A stretch of 64,000 bases of DNA from Curtobacterium sp. UNCCL20. Lineage in GTDB: Bacteria > Actinomycetota > Actinomycetes > Actinomycetales > Microbacteriaceae. The notes below the pieces were generated by a model, which saw nothing but the letters and a program-made list of their open reading frames with translations, was not told the origin of the DNA and did no database searches. How positions within the stretch are numbered: the first letter of the stretch is position 1; each line of letters starts with the position of its first letter. The stretch lies in the NCBI RefSeq assembly GCF_900101675.1, contig NZ_FNKG01000003.1:186001-250000 (forward strand), in the 5' to 3' direction. Both the position numbers and the translations under genes were made by a program. Below, piece by piece: positions 56,770-64,000 of this stretch.

Positions 56770-57539
56770 CCGGACTGACCGTCCTCCTCCCGCCTTCGGA
56801 GACGAAGCGGGAGGGTGGGGACACGGAGCGCACGCTCGACCTGCGTGCGCTGTCGTTCCCGGAACTGGCCGACGAGCGGGCCGCGGTGATCACCGCGGCC
56901 CGCTCCGTCAGTTCCGAGGAGTCCACCGCTCGGACGGCTCTGAAGCTCGGTCCGAAGTCGATCGCCGAGCGGTTCCGCAACCTCTCGCTCGAGACCTCGG
57001 GCACGATGGCGGCGATCGACCGCTACACGGGCGTGCTCTACGATCCGCTGGGCGCTCCCGACGCGGACGCCGCGACGCGCACCTGGTGGTTCGAGCACGT
57101 CGTCGTGCAGTCCGCGATGTTCGGACCGATCGGCGGTGGTGACCCGGTGCCGGCGTACCGGTTGTCGCACGACTCGCGGCTCGGTTCCCTCCGGCTCGCG
57201 GCACACTGGCCCGCTCCGTCCTCGCGGGTCCTCGGGGAGCGCGTCGCGGGTGGCCTGGTGCTGGACCTCCGGTCGGAGGGGTACCGGCAGCTCGGACCCG
57301 TGCCCGGCGCGGTGGTGCCGCGGGTCGTGAGCGTCGACGGCAGTGGTCGCCGCAAGGCGCTCAACCACTGGAACAAGACGGCGAAGGGTCGCCTCGTTGG
57401 ACTGCTCGCGCGCACCGGCGCGGAGGTCTCGACGGTGGGGGAGCTGCTGTCCTGGGCGACCGCCAACGACGTGCGCTTCGAGGCGCACGACGACGGGTGG
57501 GACCTCGTGGCTGAGAGCCTGGAGCCGGTCGCCGCCTGA
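56766..57539 (+). CDS. yaaA: YaaA-family peroxide-stress protein, probable CTG start
   Basis: 257 residues from CTG 56766 (or 254 from CTG 56775). The family N-terminus is plain as TVLLPPSETKREGG, yet it lies upstream of every in-frame ATG, GTG and TTG. CTG 56766 shares CTGA with the atpC stop. The rest (LSFPELADERAAVITAA, GTMAAIDRYTGVLYD, NHWNKTAKGRLV) is the YaaA/DUF328 domain, which in E. coli lowers free iron and protects DNA from hydrogen peroxide. Confidence 0.9.
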   Translation: MTGLTVLLPPSETKREGGDTERTLDLRALSFPELADERAAVITAARSVSSEESTARTALKLGPKSIAERFRNLSLETSGTMAAIDRYTGVLYDPLGAPDADAATRTWWFEHVVVQSAMFGPIGGGDPVPAYRLSHDSRLGSLRLAAHWPAPSSRVLGERVAGGLVLDLRSEGYRQLGPVPGAVVPRVVSVDGSGRRKALNHWNKTAKGRLVGLLARTGAEVSTVGELLSWATANDVRFEAHDDGWDLVAESLEPVAA

Positions 57540-57603
57540 CCGGCGGTCCCGTTTCCTCCTCCACAGGGGCGGGCTGCTGGCGCGCGGTCCACAGATGGCC
57601 GGT

Positions 57604-57625
57604 CGACGGCGGCCTGGAGGCCCGT
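57604..57625 (+). repeat. CTGGAGGC half-site
   Basis: CGACGGCGGCCTGGAGGCCC in the 106-nt gap after yaaA; single half of the dispersed motif. Confidence 0.5.
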
Positions 57626-57645
57626 GGTGCGTTTCGCTGGCGTGC

Positions 57646-58203
57646 ATGATCCCCGTCACGACACGAACCCACCCCGCTGCCGGAGTCCGGTACCCGCGCG
57701 AGATCGCGGCCGCGATCACCCTCCCCGCCGCGTGCGCCGCGCTCGTCGCTCCCGGTGCCGACCCGCTTCCGCGCGCCGGTGCCGTCGCCGTGCTGACCGC
57801 GTGCGGCGCACTCGCCCCGCGGTTCACGCTGATCGCGTTCCTGGCCGATCCCGACCACCCCGATCCGCGGGCGCTGACAGCGTTCGACCCGTTCCACGAC
57901 CCGACGCCGCCCGCGCTGTCCGGCGCCGGTCCGGCGCCCGACCGTCCTCGGCTCCGCATCGCCGGTGACCGCCTCGCCGGCGCCTGGCAGTGGTGGCGTA
58001 CCGAGGACCCGTCCGCCGACACCGCCACCGGGGCAGCGGGTGCCCTCGCGATGGCGTCGTGGTGCGCCTGGGCGCTCGGATCGGCGGCGCGAGCTCAGAC
58101 CCGCGCGCAGTACGCGCTCGAGACCCGGTCCGACGACCCGCTCGCCGGGCTCGTGCTCCGTTCCGTCCGCGCGGGCAGCGCACCCTCGTGGGAGCGTCGA
58201 TGA
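57646..58203 (+). CDS. Hypothetical protein resembling the C-terminal part of DUF4192
   Basis: 185 residues. The last third (ALAMASWCAWALGSAARAQT, then LETRSDDPLAGLVLRSVRAG) resembles the C-terminal helices of actinobacterial DUF4192 proteins, which are usually about twice this long. The N-terminal half is Ala/Pro-rich. It may be a shortened member or only a look-alike. Ends 54 nt before the FHA gene. Confidence 0.55.
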   Translation: MIPVTTRTHPAAGVRYPREIAAAITLPAACAALVAPGADPLPRAGAVAVLTACGALAPRFTLIAFLADPDHPDPRALTAFDPFHDPTPPALSGAGPAPDRPRLRIAGDRLAGAWQWWRTEDPSADTATGAAGALAMASWCAWALGSAARAQTRAQYALETRSDDPLAGLVLRSVRAGSAPSWERR

Positions 58204-58257
58204 CGACCGGCGGACCGGATCGTCTACGGTGGTGTCGACCACGCTTGGAGGACTCGA

Positions 58258-59004
58258 GTGCGCGATGACGACATCGACGACACCGTCGTCCGTCGACCTC
58301 GTGCGTCGCTGTCCGGCGATCGCGTGAGCGACGCGCTCGACGACACCGTGATCCGTCCGGTACCGACATCGCCCGAGCAGGTGGACGGTCCGGATACCGA
58401 CGACACGGTGGTCGCTCGGACCGTCCCGCCCCGTCCAGAAGGCGACTCGCTGGACGACACGGTGGTGCGGCCCGTGAACCCGGCCACGGAGCGACCGGGC
58501 ACGGTCGTCGGAGCCGAGCCGGGCCTCCCGTCCGTCCCGTCGGTACCCATGACCCGGGTGCCCACGACCCGGGTCCCGTCCATCCGGATCGGCGAGCGGG
58601 TGCTGCGGCTGGACCGTCCCGTCATCATCGGCCGGCGCCCCGCACTGCCGCGGATCCTGCGGGGTCCCGTCCCGGAACTCGTGACCGTGCCCTCCGGCAG
58701 CGGCCAGGTCTCCTCGTCACACCTGCTGGTGCACGCCGAGGGCGAAGCCGCGGTCGTCGACGACCTCCGGTCCACCAACGGTACGGTCGTCCGTCCACCC
58801 GGCGCGGCCCCGTTCCGGATGCCCGCAGGTGCCTCCAACGTCGTGCTGACGGGTACGGTTGTCGAGATCGGTGACGGCAACGTCATCGAGGTCCTCTCGC
58901 CGCACCTCCGGGTCGCACCGGCGACGGAGGACCTCCCGCCACTTCCCCCGTGGCCCACCGAACCACCCACCGGCACGCCCCGAACCCCCAGAGAGCGATC
59001 CTGA
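58258..59004 (+). CDS. FHA-domain protein with four N-terminal DDTV motifs
   Basis: 248 residues. A disordered N-terminus carries DDTV(V/I) around T9, T30, T50 and T68, separated by Pro/Ser linkers. The FHA domain follows (about 108-220): RPVIIGRRPA, SSSHLLVHAEG and DLRSTNGTVV hold the usual Arg, Ser-His and Asn of phosphothreonine binding. C-terminus Pro-rich. GGAGG lies 7 nt before GTG. The next genes encode a PP2C phosphatase and a Ser/Thr kinase, so the repeated threonines are likely kinase sites. Confidence 0.85.
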   Translation: MRDDDIDDTVVRRPRASLSGDRVSDALDDTVIRPVPTSPEQVDGPDTDDTVVARTVPPRPEGDSLDDTVVRPVNPATERPGTVVGAEPGLPSVPSVPMTRVPTTRVPSIRIGERVLRLDRPVIIGRRPALPRILRGPVPELVTVPSGSGQVSSSHLLVHAEGEAAVVDDLRSTNGTVVRPPGAAPFRMPAGASNVVLTGTVVEIGDGNVIEVLSPHLRVAPATEDLPPLPPWPTEPPTGTPRTPRERS

Positions 59005-59007
59005 AAC

Positions 59008-59829
59008 GTGACCGAACTCGGCCGAGCAGCGACTGCGCACGCCATCGACGTCCCCGGTGCCGACGGCACCAACCTGACGCTGTCGTGGGGAGCGGCGACC
59101 GACGTGGGTCGGCGCCGTGACCACAACGAGGACAGCTACATCGTCGCGGCGCCGTTCTTCGTCGTCGCGGACGGCATGGGCGGCCACCTCGCGGGCGACC
59201 GTGCGAGCGACGCCGTGGTGCGGCGGCTCGAGCAGGCGACGGAGAGTCCGTTCACGACCCGACAGGCGATCCAGCGTGCGCTCCTCCTCGCGACCGCCGA
59301 CATCGAGCGTGCGGCCGGTGGCAACGCGATCGGTGCCGGCACCACGGTGACCGGCATCGCGCTCGTCGCGGCGCAGGGACAGCCGGCAGCGCTCGTCTTC
59401 AACGTGGGGGACTCACGCACCTACCGGATCGAGGACGGGGTGCTCCGCCGGGTCACGGTGGACCACTCGGTCGTGCAGGAGATGGTCGACGCCGGTCTCC
59501 TCCGTGCCGAGGACGCCGAACGACACCCGGACAGCAACGTCATCACGCGGGCCGTCGGTTTCGGCGAACCCCCGGAGCCGGACTGGTGGACGCTGCCCCT
59601 CCGCGCGGGAGACCGGTACATCGTCTGCTCCGACGGACTGACCAAGGAACTCGGCGACGCCGGCATCGGTCGGATCGCCGCCCGGGTGCCGGGCGCACAG
59701 GACCTCGCCGAGCGGCTCGTCGGCGACGCGGTCGTCGCCGGTGGCCGGGACAACGTGACGGTGGTCGTCCTGCAGGTCGACGAGGCACCGGACGACGGGG
59801 ACGTGGAAGACACGCTCCCGCGCCACTGA
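59008..59829 (+). CDS. PP2C-family Ser/Thr protein phosphatase
   Basis: 273 residues. Metal-binding aspartates in DHNEDSY, VVADGMGGH, CSDGLTKE and GGRDNVTVVVL; also GAGTTVTGIAL and FNVGDSRTYR. Expected to reverse the adjacent kinase. Its tail DVEDTLPRH resembles the DDTV motif of the FHA protein. Starts 3 nt after the FHA stop. Cytoplasmic; no membrane helix. Confidence 0.93.
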   Translation: MTELGRAATAHAIDVPGADGTNLTLSWGAATDVGRRRDHNEDSYIVAAPFFVVADGMGGHLAGDRASDAVVRRLEQATESPFTTRQAIQRALLLATADIERAAGGNAIGAGTTVTGIALVAAQGQPAALVFNVGDSRTYRIEDGVLRRVTVDHSVVQEMVDAGLLRAEDAERHPDSNVITRAVGFGEPPEPDWWTLPLRAGDRYIVCSDGLTKELGDAGIGRIAARVPGAQDLAERLVGDAVVAGGRDNVTVVVLQVDEAPDDGDVEDTLPRH

Positions 59830-59831
59830 CT

Positions 59832-59850
59832 GTCCCCCGAACTGGGGGAC
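59832..59850 (+). terminator. Hairpin GTCCCCC/GGGGGAC after the PP2C gene
   Basis: Perfect 7-bp GC-rich stem, 5-nt loop, no T-run. Directly after the phosphatase stop and before a separate promoter for the kinase. Confidence 0.5.
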
Positions 59851-59902
59851 CCCTGACCCTCCGCGTGCATCGGTGTGCGGAATGTCGGTCGCACACGGTT
59901 CG

Positions 59903-59908
59903 TACAAT
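59903..59908 (+). promoter_or_regulatory. Candidate -10 box TACAAT for the kinase gene
   Basis: Near-consensus TACAAT about 50 nt before the kinase ATG, leaving a leader that carries the GGAAGGGGAAG ribosome-binding site. GGAAT lies upstream (59879) and might be an ECF-type -35 element. Confidence 0.4.
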
Positions 59909-59958
59909 GGCAGGGCCGTGACGAGAGAGCTGGCCGCTCGGCCGGGAAGGGGAAGACG

Positions 59959-61371
59959 ATGGCGCGACGCCTGCCGTCCGACCCGCCGGTGATCGGCGGG
60001 TTCAGCCCCGTGCACGTGCTCGGCTCGGGTGGCTTCGCCGACGTCTTCCTGTACGAGCAGGACATGCCCCGACGGCAGGTCGCCGTGAAGGTGCTCCTCG
60101 ACGAAGTCGTCGACGACCGCGTCCGGCAGATGTTCCAGGCCGAGGCGAACCTGATGGCACGCCTCAGCACCCACCCCTCCATCCTCACCGTGTTCCAGGC
60201 GAGCGTTGCGTCGGACGGCCGGCCGTACCTCGTGATGGAACTCTGCTCGTCGTCACTCAGCGAGCGGTACCGGCGCGAACCGATCCCGGTGTCCGAGGTG
60301 CTGTCGGTCGGCATCCGGATCGGGTCGGCGCTCGAGACAGCGCACCGCGAAGGCGTCCTCCACCGCGACATCAAGCCGTCGAACATCCTGCTGACGGCGT
60401 ACGGCAACCCGGTGCTGTCGGACTTCGGGATCGCGGCGACCATCGGCGGGTCCGACCCGGACGAGCCCGTCGGCATGTCGATCCCGTGGTCCGCGCCGGA
60501 GGTCCTCATCGACGAGTCCCGCGGCACCATCCAGTCCGAGGTCTACTCGCTGGCGGCCACCGTCTACTCGCTCCTCGCCGGTCGCAGTCCGTTCGAGATC
60601 CGTGGTGGGAAGAACGGCGCGGCCGACCTGATGGGACGCATCGACAAGGGCGGGGTGAAGCCGACCGGGCGCACGGACGTCCCGCCGTCGCTCGAACGCC
60701 TGCTGGCCGCGGCGATGTCGCGCGGGGTCGCCGGACGCCCGTCGACCGTGATGGAGCTCGTCCGAGGCTTCCAGCAGGTCGAGGCAGAGCTCGGCATCCC
60801 GCAGACGTCGGCGGACGTGGCGGTGGAGGCCTGGGCGGTCGCGACACCGACGCCGTCCGGCGACCGCACGATGATCCGCGAACTCCAGCCACCGTCCCGC
60901 GTGGGCGCTCGGCGGCGCACGCGGAAGGCCGTGGTCGGTGGGTCGTCGGCCGCCGGGGCCCAGAGCGTCGGGACCGTCCACCGCACCGGCTCCGTGACGC
61001 GCCAGCGCCGACGGTCCCGGTCCACGCTCGTCTGGGCGACGTCGCTGACGGTCGTCGTGGTCGCTGCCCTCGCCATCGCCACCGTGATCGTCGTCGGGCG
61101 TCTGGGAGCCGGAGCGATCCCGGTGGTGTCCGACGTCCGTGCGGAGACGACCCCGGCCTCGGTGACGTTCACCTGGCCGGACCCCGGCCTCCGGAACGGC
61201 GACACCTACGTCATCTCGTCGAACGGCGCCTCGAGCCAGCAGACGGGCACGAGCTTCGTCGTCTCCGGCGACAAGGGCGACGAGGAGTGCATCGCCGTCG
61301 CCGTGAACCGCGACGGCAAGACCGGCGTCGCGAGCGCCCAGAAGTGCGCCACGATCGGGAGCACCGGGTGA
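59959..61371 (+). CDS. Transmembrane Ser/Thr protein kinase
   Basis: 470 residues. Kinase domain (about 14-270): glycine loop LGSGGFADVF, ATP lysine K44 in VAVKVLL, catalytic HRD at 135-137 in LHRDIKPSNILL, DFG at 155. Basic juxtamembrane linker, one helix (about 357-380; VWATSLTVVVVAALAIATVI), and an outer fibronectin-III-like domain with two late cysteines (EECIAVAVN, QKCATI). No PASTA repeats. The stop overlaps the large Ig-like gene (GTGA). Confidence 0.93.
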   Translation: MARRLPSDPPVIGGFSPVHVLGSGGFADVFLYEQDMPRRQVAVKVLLDEVVDDRVRQMFQAEANLMARLSTHPSILTVFQASVASDGRPYLVMELCSSSLSERYRREPIPVSEVLSVGIRIGSALETAHREGVLHRDIKPSNILLTAYGNPVLSDFGIAATIGGSDPDEPVGMSIPWSAPEVLIDESRGTIQSEVYSLAATVYSLLAGRSPFEIRGGKNGAADLMGRIDKGGVKPTGRTDVPPSLERLLAAAMSRGVAGRPSTVMELVRGFQQVEAELGIPQTSADVAVEAWAVATPTPSGDRTMIRELQPPSRVGARRRTRKAVVGGSSAAGAQSVGTVHRTGSVTRQRRRSRSTLVWATSLTVVVVAALAIATVIVVGRLGAGAIPVVSDVRAETTPASVTFTWPDPGLRNGDTYVISSNGASSQQTGTSFVVSGDKGDEECIAVAVNRDGKTGVASAQKCATIGSTG

Positions 61372-64000
61372 TCCGGGCCCTCCTCGCGAAGCACCGCTCC
61401 GCAGCGATCACGGTGGGTGCCTCGATCGTGGTCGGCGCGGTCGTCGCGACCGCGGCCATCGCGTCGACCGGGTACCACACGCAGCGCGTCGACCTCGGTG
61501 ACGGGACGGTCTGGGTGCCGTCCGCCGAGTACGGTGCCGTCGGCCGCGCGAACACCGGGGTGCTCCAGCTGAACACCGCGGTCGAGACCGCGAGCGACAG
61601 CCTGTCCGTCCTGCAGCGCGGGTCCACCGTCTACAGCGTCGACGAGACGAAGGGCACCGTCGCGAAGGTCGACGTCGCCGACGCCACCGTCGCCGACCCG
61701 GTCACCCTGCCGGCCGGGTCGCCGCAGGTGTTCTTCGCCGGGTCCACGGCCGTCATCGGCAACGGCGACACCGGCGAGGTCTGGGCGACCCCCGCCAAGG
61801 ACCTCGGCGAGTTCGACGCGTCGACGAAGGCCGACCTGACGCTCGGCGCCGACGCGGTGTTCGACGCCTCGGACAGCCACGTCGCCGTGTACTCGCCGAA
61901 GACCGGCACAGCGTCGCTCGTCGCCGTGGGCAGCTCGCTGTCGGTGGCCGAGCGGTGGACGGTCAAGATGAACCGGTCCGACGACTTCCAGGTGGCGTCG
62001 TTCGGCCGGCACGTGGCCGTCCTCGACCGGACCACGGGGGAGATCTCCGTCGACGGGGACACCGTCGACCTCGGCGACCGGGTCGGGTCGTCGCCGTCGC
62101 TCCAGCGGTCGACGGACGATGCTTCCGAGGTGGTCGTCGCCGGCACGGCCGGTCTCGTCCGGGTCTCGGCCTCCGGTGCCGTCACCACGACGGCGCTCCA
62201 GGTGTCCGGTCGCGCCGCACGGCCGACCGTCGTCGGTTCCTGCACCTACGCCGCGTGGGCCGGCGGGCAGGCGATGGACAGCTGCGAGGGCAAAGGGCTG
62301 CAGCGGCTCGCCGACACGGCAGGCACGGGCGACCTGCAGATCCTGCACAACGGCGAGACCGTCGTCGCCAACGACCCGCAGAGCGGTCGCTCCTGGGCGA
62401 TCGACCGGAGCGGCCAGGTCATCGACAACTGGGCCGACCTCATCAAGAAGGACGACGACCAGCAGCAGGAGCAGGTGTCCGACGACGACCCGGAGGTCGA
62501 GAAGGACCAGAAGCCGCCCGTCGCGGTCGACGACGACCTCGGCGCTCGTCCGGGACGCACCACGAGCCTCCCGGTCCTGCTCAACGACTACGACCCGAAC
62601 GGCGACCCGATCGTCATCAGTGAGGTCGGCACCGTCGCCGACGCCGTCGGCGACGTGGCGATCGTCGGCGACGGCCAGCGGTTGCAGATCACGCTGTCCG
62701 CCCGTGCCACCGGGACGGTCTCGTTCCCGTACACGATCACCGACGGCAACGGCGGATCGGACACCGCGACCGTCACGGTGACGGTCCGACCGGACTCCGT
62801 GAACGACGCACCGCGGCAGGTCCGCGACACCTCCGCCGACGTCGTGCAGAACGGCCACGTCGTGACCAACGTCCTCGGCGACTGGGTCGACCCGGACGGC
62901 GACCCCGTCTACCTGAAGTCCGCGACGGCGTCCGACGGCGACCGCGTCTCCACGACGCCCGACGGCCTCCTCGACTACCGCAACGCCAGCGCACGCACCG
63001 GCGACCGTGCCGTGCAGCTCGTCGTGAGCGACGGCCGTGACGACGGCCGCGGGTCGGTCGTGGTGCACGTCGCGAAACAGGGTGCTGTTCCGCTGTACGC
63101 CGATCCGTTCCCCGTGCAGGGGTACGCCGGCAAGGCGTTCACCGTGGACCCGCTCGAGCACGTCCGAGGCGGCAACGGCACCGTGACGCTCACCAGCGTG
63201 TCCTCGGCCACCGGACTGACGGTCACCCCGAGCTACGACGCCGGCACGTTCCGCGTGCAGGGCGCGAGCGCGGGCGACCACCAGCTCGAGTACACGGTCA
63301 CCGACGGCACCAAGACCTCGAGCGGCATCGTCCGGGTCACCGTCCTCGCGCCCCCGGACGCCTCGACCGCGCCGATCACCACCCCGAAGACGGTGTTCGT
63401 CAACACGCTCTCCACCAAGGACACCGACGTCACCGCGACCGACATCGACCCGGCCGGCGGCGTGCTCCTCGTGACCGCGCTGGACGGACCCGACCGGGGT
63501 TCGGGCGTGCAGGCGAGCATCCTCGACCAGCACACCGTCCGCGTCACGCTCACCGCGCCGCTCGACGGACCGGTGTCGTTCGGGTACACCGAGACGAACG
63601 GGCTGGCGTCCTCGACCGGCACCGTCACGGTCGTCGAGATCCCGAAGCCGGACCGCATCCAGCCGCCGGTCGCCCAGCCCGACACCGCGACGGTCCGCGT
63701 CGGCGACGTCGCGAACATCGACGTGCTCGACAACGACACGCAGCCCGAGGGGGAGCCCCTCACCCTGCAACCGGACCTCGTGCAGAACGTCCCGGGCGAC
63801 GGCGGCCTGCTCTTCGTCTCCGGTGACCACCTCCGGTACCTGGCCCCCACCACGCCGGGCAACTACACCGCCGTCTACCGGGTCGCCGGGCCCGACGGGC
63901 AGTACGCGGACGCGACGGTGTCGATCTCGGTCCGCGAGCAGGACGCGGCGACGAACAACCCGCCCGTTCCGCAGACGGTCACCGCGCGGGTGGTCGCGGG
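61368..64000 (+). CDS. Giant Ig/cadherin-like surface protein, 3' end missing
   Basis: 877 residues visible, still open at the window end. N-terminal signal anchor (AAITVGASIVVGAVVATAAI), a beta-propeller-like region with Ser/Thr/Asp-rich strands (about 45-370), an acidic/Gln linker (KKDDDQQQEQVSDDDPEVEK), and then repeated Ig-like domains marked by LLNDYDPNGDP, LGDWVDPDGDP and VLDNDTQPEGEP, which look calcium-binding. Translationally coupled to the kinase. Probably exported and displayed. Confidence 0.85.
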   Translation, partial: MIRALLAKHRSAAITVGASIVVGAVVATAAIASTGYHTQRVDLGDGTVWVPSAEYGAVGRANTGVLQLNTAVETASDSLSVLQRGSTVYSVDETKGTVAKVDVADATVADPVTLPAGSPQVFFAGSTAVIGNGDTGEVWATPAKDLGEFDASTKADLTLGADAVFDASDSHVAVYSPKTGTASLVAVGSSLSVAERWTVKMNRSDDFQVASFGRHVAVLDRTTGEISVDGDTVDLGDRVGSSPSLQRSTDDASEVVVAGTAGLVRVSASGAVTTTALQVSGRAARPTVVGSCTYAAWAGGQAMDSCEGKGLQRLADTAGTGDLQILHNGETVVANDPQSGRSWAIDRSGQVIDNWADLIKKDDDQQQEQVSDDDPEVEKDQKPPVAVDDDLGARPGRTTSLPVLLNDYDPNGDPIVISEVGTVADAVGDVAIVGDGQRLQITLSARATGTVSFPYTITDGNGGSDTATVTVTVRPDSVNDAPRQVRDTSADVVQNGHVVTNVLGDWVDPDGDPVYLKSATASDGDRVSTTPDGLLDYRNASARTGDRAVQLVVSDGRDDGRGSVVVHVAKQGAVPLYADPFPVQGYAGKAFTVDPLEHVRGGNGTVTLTSVSSATGLTVTPSYDAGTFRVQGASAGDHQLEYTVTDGTKTSSGIVRVTVLAPPDASTAPITTPKTVFVNTLSTKDTDVTATDIDPAGGVLLVTALDGPDRGSGVQASILDQHTVRVTLTAPLDGPVSFGYTETNGLASSTGTVTVVEIPKPDRIQPPVAQPDTATVRVGDVANIDVLDNDTQPEGEPLTLQPDLVQNVPGDGGLLFVSGDHLRYLAPTTPGNYTAVYRVAGPDGQYADATVSISVREQDAATNNPPVPQTVTARVVA

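Follow-up and report, generated by a model that had tools for sequence, protein, structure and literature searches.

What links an FHA protein, a PP2C-type Ser/Thr phosphatase, a membrane Ser/Thr protein kinase and a giant surface protein whose genes follow one another in Curtobacterium sp. UNCCL20? The window, a stretch of 64,000 nucleotides covering positions 186001-250000 of contig C3 of this 3.85 Mb genome, ends inside the fourth of these genes. An earlier note on the window had described the four as one run and as a poorly described system. We confirmed the run. The second claim failed, as the same genes form the PFNA operon of Bifidobacterium (PMC8430577, PMC6803598). From sequence comparison, the module is nonetheless widespread in Actinomycetota, beyond bifidobacteria, and its "transglutaminase" (TGM) lacks the residues to act as such by the usual chemistry; both points are new.

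All four genes lie on the + strand. FHA1 (58258..59004, +, 248 amino acids, aa) has its FHA core at about residues 120 to 215, including GRR..SSSH..TNG, and scored 20.5 bits against Pfam FHA in one search (cut-off 20.7) and 22.4 bits, above the cut-off, in another. The PP2C-type phosphatase (59008..59829, +, 273 aa) exceeded its Pfam cut-off and has the conserved PP2C motif residues. The kinase (59959..61371, +, 470 aa) has a Pfam Pkinase match (E 6.2e-37), catalytic motif residues, one transmembrane (TM) helix and an outer domain of ~90 residues with two Cys. Its start is more likely ATG 59959 than GTG 59875; a purine-rich stretch precedes the ATG. The giant starts at GTG 61368 and overlaps the kinase stop by four bases (GTGA, 61368..61371, +), the coupling described in the earlier note, and the window holds the first 877 of its 1953 aa (61368..64000, +). 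We read the locus on past the window end as L008 (window position = L008 position + 56999). There the giant ends at L008:10230 and is followed by MoxR (L008:10299-11270), a protein in which Pfam found only DUF58 (L008:11267-12679), the TgpA-type TGM with TgpA_N and Transglut_core (ATG L008:12676, to 15171) and a second FHA protein with zinc ribbons, FHA2 (L008:15168-17153). MoxR, DUF58 and transglutaminase-type genes had been anticipated downstream. Gaps between genes are short or overlapping, except for 129 bases before the kinase ATG and 68 before MoxR, so a single transcript is likely; no promoter- or terminator-like site was found in 57500-61500.

This neighbourhood recurs in relatives. 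Within the order, 64 of 149 genomes had a match to the first 380 residues of the giant. A 42-row giant profile gave matches at E 1e-5 in 86 of 394 class genomes, many of these matches being short and partial, and at E 1e-12 in 15 of 396 genomes sampled across the phylum, of which six lie outside the class. Among 61 order-level loci (own included), some cut by contig or fetch ends, 53 hold the giant, MoxR, DUF58 and TGM within ~20 kb, 42 hold these four core genes with the kinase, and 34 also PP2C and FHA. Core and kinase were present in all 20 further loci, which come from paralogous clusters and from other families within the class. In four of the six loci from other classes (L301-L304), MoxR, DUF58 and TGM accompany a giant of 2115-2265 aa. 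When the TGM core was used as bait, 80 named loci were recovered; each of the 59 that are uncut has the four core genes, in a few cases with broken frames. Carrier genera include Salinibacterium, Cryobacterium, Glaciibacter and Frigoribacterium, with the same pseudo-TGM, and L149 (Salinibacterium) and L153 (Frigoribacterium) have the same kind of kinase outer domain. The four-base kinase-giant overlap occurs in 31 of the 56 named loci having both genes; in four of the 56 (L182, L183, L187, L189) the kinase that was read is not the gene immediately preceding that giant. We rejected a chance neighbourhood, since most relatives examined have the same neighbours; homologues lying mostly apart, which would have spoken against the earlier note, are not what the order-level loci show. 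A literature search, which covered few subscription papers, returned no report of the cluster outside bifidobacteria.

Aligned with Pseudomonas aeruginosa TgpA (6g49), the TGM of this locus has Gln for the catalytic Cys and Thr for His and keeps Asp, in an alignment that is weak (E 0.27). Its closest named relatives, with core identities of up to 86-89%, are from Curtobacterium. The catalytic Cys was absent from 56/56 cluster TGMs in a first survey, two of which (L100, L104) adjoin shorter giant relatives of 453 and 1011 aa, and His was kept in 12 of the 56, judged by eye. It was also absent from 80/80 readable TGMs among 82 open reading frames (ORFs) of the named set, 20/20 of the further loci and 6/6 from other classes, two of these six not being beside a giant. 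As a control, we took one match per genome in 30 genomes. In 27 the best transglutaminase-core match lay outside the cluster, and Cys was kept in 27/27, the window's genome included; by motif, two of the 27 are not of TgpA type. One control genome (G107) has no listed giant match and three (G233, G371, G475) have the short form. In the other three of the 30 genomes, all of a family designated f4, the cluster's own TGM, which has no Cys, matched best. Around the lost residues, the pocket shows strong conservation (37 rows). One clade (100/99) in a tree built from 103 cores takes in 71 of the 76 cluster TGMs; outside it, L090 is unplaced on a long branch and L104 and L267-L269 fall elsewhere. 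These last four, linked to shorter propeller proteins, stand among the catalytic ones, so loss of the Cys may have occurred repeatedly.

The published PFNA operon comprises pkb2, fn3, aaa-atp, duf58 and tgm, to which some species add prpC, a hypothetical gene and fha (PMC8430577, PMC6803598). It varies from five to eight genes in one direction, and in B. longum its genes are co-transcribed and its kinase phosphorylates its MoxR (PMC8430577). The same five core genes occur here in the same order and direction. In B. longum, the FN3 protein extends to residue 1994 and has two FN3 domains at 1494-1671 (PMC10688814); likewise, the giant here has 1953 aa and FN3 domains starting at 1463 and 1554, past the window end. 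A kinase with a TM helix and an outer domain, and PP2C and FHA genes in the set, are further likenesses. The arrangement differs in that PP2C and FHA1 precede the kinase here and only the zinc-ribbon FHA gene follows TGM, whereas the published prpC, hypothetical gene and fha follow tgm. The carriers also differ, as those here are not gut bifidobacteria. The cluster was published as unique to bifidobacteria and its TGM as presumably a cysteine protease (PMC8430577). Neither description is supported here. A genus-type 16S primer site was present in 7/9 genomes of f4 vs 0/7 others, and on this basis we take f4 to be probably Bifidobacteriaceae. The eight f4 loci retrieved read kinase-giant-MoxR-DUF58-TGM, with an FHA gene on the other strand in three, unlike the published cluster, and their eight TGMs nest inside the cluster TGM clade.

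Three other known systems share parts of this module. Actinobacteria have a PASTA-kinase/FHA/PP2C/RodA/PBP cluster, in which FHA, PP2C and a membrane kinase likewise lie side by side. The kinase here has no PASTA, as the earlier note had said, and is followed by the giant, MoxR, DUF58 and TGM. We rejected identity with that cluster: no PASTA matched on C3, and the matches are on contigs C2, C4 and C6 of the same genome, including a PASTA kinase near two FHA genes at C6:609-618 kb. The published cluster has been compared with the mycobacterial moxR operon (PMC12067865), and a MoxR-DUF58-transglutaminase gene order occurs often in different species (PMC6803598). TgpA of P. aeruginosa, whose triad is conserved and whose activity was assayed (PMC3507681), has the TgpA_N plus transglutaminase-core architecture found here. 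It differs in the catalytic Cys/His, replaced here by Gln/Thr. The MoxR of this locus scored above the Pfam bpMoxR cut-off (34.8 vs 27 bits), and we take its DUF58 protein to be vWA-like. As in the MoxR-vWA-beta-propeller ternary conflict systems (Kaur 2020, PMC7159879), MoxR, a DUF58 protein and a propeller are encoded together; here, however, the propeller is on the N-anchored giant and not fused to the DUF58 protein.

The giant is anchored at its N terminus by a TM helix, with a predicted propeller (~residues 43-350) next to the membrane and then an immunoglobulin-like (Ig)/FN3 stem of Big_9/cadherin-like domains; Pfam found six Big_9 and two fn3 stretches. This layout, together with the steady length described below, is a further new point. 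The propeller call rests on a model and a fold comparison. Pfam found nothing in the N-terminal domain of this giant, and in 48 relatives it found three propeller-type families, with one member each. Length is near-constant (median 1958 aa, 132/142 within 10%) in a set of 149 giant-type proteins with a TM helix, from which 7 under 1500 aa were dropped, ORFs under 600 aa having been dropped earlier.

Some features of individual giants were recorded alongside. Two tandem giants stand at each of L053, L055 and L090, and genomes G021 and G487 have three or four giant matches each. At L104, L267-L269 and L305, mostly from large genomes, a shorter giant relative (~700-1000 aa) accompanies MoxR, DUF58 and a Cys-less TGM; L267-L269, with a protein of ~700-830 aa in the giant's place, are three of the 20 further loci. 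Trp occurs in the last six residues of 38/142 giants vs 16.4 expected. The propeller's top fold matches include Rsa4, a propeller on which Rea1, an ATPase of the MoxR clade, acts. This likeness is probably a coincidence, because the propeller here is predicted to lie outside the cell.

Motif residues of kinase, PP2C and MoxR are present in most members. Among 66 kinases, 10 of them truncated or unreadable, 46 have an outer domain, and 46/46 of these domains contain exactly two Cys; its conservation within Microbacteriaceae is fair (mean column identity 47%). The FHA proteins bear Thr motifs in their tails. The N-terminal tail of FHA1 has four DDTV-type motifs (residues 7, 28, 48 and 66), and the FHA proteins of 30 named genomes, some with tails read in part, contain 60 such motifs vs 0.83 expected from shuffling, at least one in 23/30. 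In the order set, where tails were readable in 60/72 ORFs, D[GDE]xT[IVL]-type motifs occur in 20/31 FHA1 tails and [DE]xTR-type motifs in 15/29 FHA2 tails; with the patterns swapped between the two, counts were 2/29 and 3/31. We propose the acidic-Thr-hydrophobic tail motifs as candidate kinase sites, a new suggestion of this analysis made by analogy with GarA/OdhI, in which a phospho-Thr ahead of the FHA domain acts as a switch. Apart from the tails, FHA1 of other families (L052, L060, L061, L065, L067 and L107) has an extra ~150-aa N-terminal domain (by eye) that FHA1 of the window lacks, and the N-terminal parts of FHA2 vary, with zinc ribbons here and membrane helices (RDD-like by eye) in L060, L065 and L067.

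Coupling between the parts was approached through co-divergence in 48 of the 80 named loci, all seven pieces being required and five loci dropped by hand. Net of MoxR and DUF58, the kinase outer domain co-diverged with the propeller (0.335), stem (0.344) and TGM (0.248), and less with the giant C-terminus (0.085); these values were reached by 0, 0, 0 and 12 of 999 permutations, respectively. The strongest value was propeller-TGM (0.491). We take such co-divergence only as a hint of coupling.

We read the module as a phospho-controlled, wall-spanning envelope complex, ancestral in Actinomycetota and homologous to the PFNA operon, a reading whose chances we judge to be about even. It builds on what the sequences show: the gene set, its conserved neighbourhood, the motif residues, the Cys loss and a giant layout of near-constant length. 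The giant's stem would cross the cell wall, its tip reaching the surface. The pseudo-transglutaminase might bind the membrane-proximal propeller or the stem, and so might the kinase in loci where it has an outer domain. Kinase and PP2C would set the phosphorylation of the Thr motifs in both FHA tails, and the FHA domains would bind phospho-Thr, gathering or releasing MoxR-DUF58. That chaperone pair may assemble or remodel the complex of giant and pseudo-transglutaminase, so that the phospho-switch would govern how a wall-spanning fibre is assembled or tethered. In bifidobacteria, the exposed tip would have come to bind cytokines at a later stage. The module might go further and serve as a phylum-wide sensor of tension or wall integrity, with a fixed-length fibre, a propeller tying it to the membrane, a docking clamp formed by the dead transglutaminase fold, and a phospho-switch of kinase and FHA proteins driving a MoxR motor that assembles or resets the fibre; we regard this as distinctly improbable.

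Several observations weigh against the envelope-complex reading. The kinase is not always by the giant; in some loci it lies downstream with PP2C/FHA, and at L252-L254, L256, L257 and L304 it is on the opposite strand. Giants without any partner stand at the fetched loci L051 and L075, and no MoxR was found at L064, L070 and L090. The kinase may sense the surface protein, one of two options in the earlier note; of the 56 readable kinases, however, 10 have a TM helix but lack the outer domain, and sensing by this domain is therefore not universal. The earlier note's fibronectin-like outer part stood as a short domain with two Cys and fell short on FN3 homology, which is weak: Pfam fn3 matched 3/43 relatives (E up to 1), and the comparison with the giant's FN3 profile was not significant, so FN3 identity is not established. 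The Ig-like family Kre9_KNH matched 19/43 relatives, and the window copy matched nothing. The DUF58 metal-site Asp is kept in only 22/57 (a column count, with one gap), and the co-chaperone role of DUF58 is thus unsure. Motifs are missing from 11/31 FHA1 and 14/29 FHA2 tails of the order set and occur in only 5/21 FHA2 tails of the named set (5 vs 0.2 expected), a count that left out the 4 named FHA1; the tail patterns were picked after viewing the sequences, and a first, looser motif test was weak (47 vs 31.5, 72 ORFs). The many close relatives in the set aid the constancy of giant length, fold similarity shows no function, and shared ancestry is not fully removed from the co-divergence values.

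The published work on Bifidobacterium would make the module a sensor of host signals, with kinase, giant and TGM receiving host ligands such as TNF-alpha and steering adhesion and host adaptation. There, FN3 fragments bind TNF-alpha, TNF-alpha induces PFNA genes, and positive selection was reported (PMC8430577, PMC6803598, PMC12607495, PMC10688814). The module with the same pseudo-TGM is nevertheless found in Salinibacterium, Cryobacterium, Glaciibacter, Frigoribacterium and other classes. These carriers mostly live without an animal host, and the same clade includes the TGMs of f4, which we take as Bifidobacteriaceae. We give the host-signal account very little credence, and as the module's original job it is unlikely because of the breadth, the dead enzyme and the steady architecture. 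A simpler account, which we consider unlikely, treats the giant as an ordinary adhesin of which kinase, phosphatase and FHA proteins regulate only the amount. Its Big_9, cadherin-like and FN3 repeats would suit an adhesin, and the bifidobacterial fn3 product is reported to take part in adhesion (cited in PMC6803598). Against this, the giant is near-constant in length, whereas Big_9 frames elsewhere in the same genomes run from 411 to 2447 aa among the matches listed; it has no LPxTG, and its partnership with MoxR, DUF58 and TGM is steady.

Regulation could also be the loose part. MoxR, DUF58 and TGM would then be the machinery by which the giant matures, through insertion or folding, with the kinase cluster as a loosely attached regulator. 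The core genes are indeed more constant than kinase, PP2C and FHA (53, 42 and 34 of the 61 loci), and MoxR has its motif residues; yet a kinase is within reach in 20/20 class and paralog loci, and it overlaps the giant in 31/56. We consider this account unlikely as well. A module published as a bifidobacteria-specific receiver of human immune signals is common to many other actinobacteria; its primary job is probably an envelope function, and positive selection in bifidobacteria would be a later layer. DUF58 and the pseudo-transglutaminase gain steady partners, which may help with MoxR-DUF58-TGM clusters generally.

Some minor features remain to be recorded. A D/ExSxS test for the DUF58 metal site was discarded in favour of the column count, as it is not position-specific: it was positive in 10/22 readable paralog loci, which include L331 (a cluster gene) and L330 (a misreading), and in 5/56 of the cluster. 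Beyond FHA2 at the locus itself lies a gene for a 247-aa protein without Pfam or NCBIfam match or relative in the survey loci. Ten kinases (L259-L262, L264-L266, L050, L097, L106) end right past the TM helix. The stretch between PP2C and kinase folds, overall, no better than its shuffles (z -0.37); directly past the PP2C stop and ahead of the kinase, it contains a perfect GC-rich hairpin at 59832-59850.

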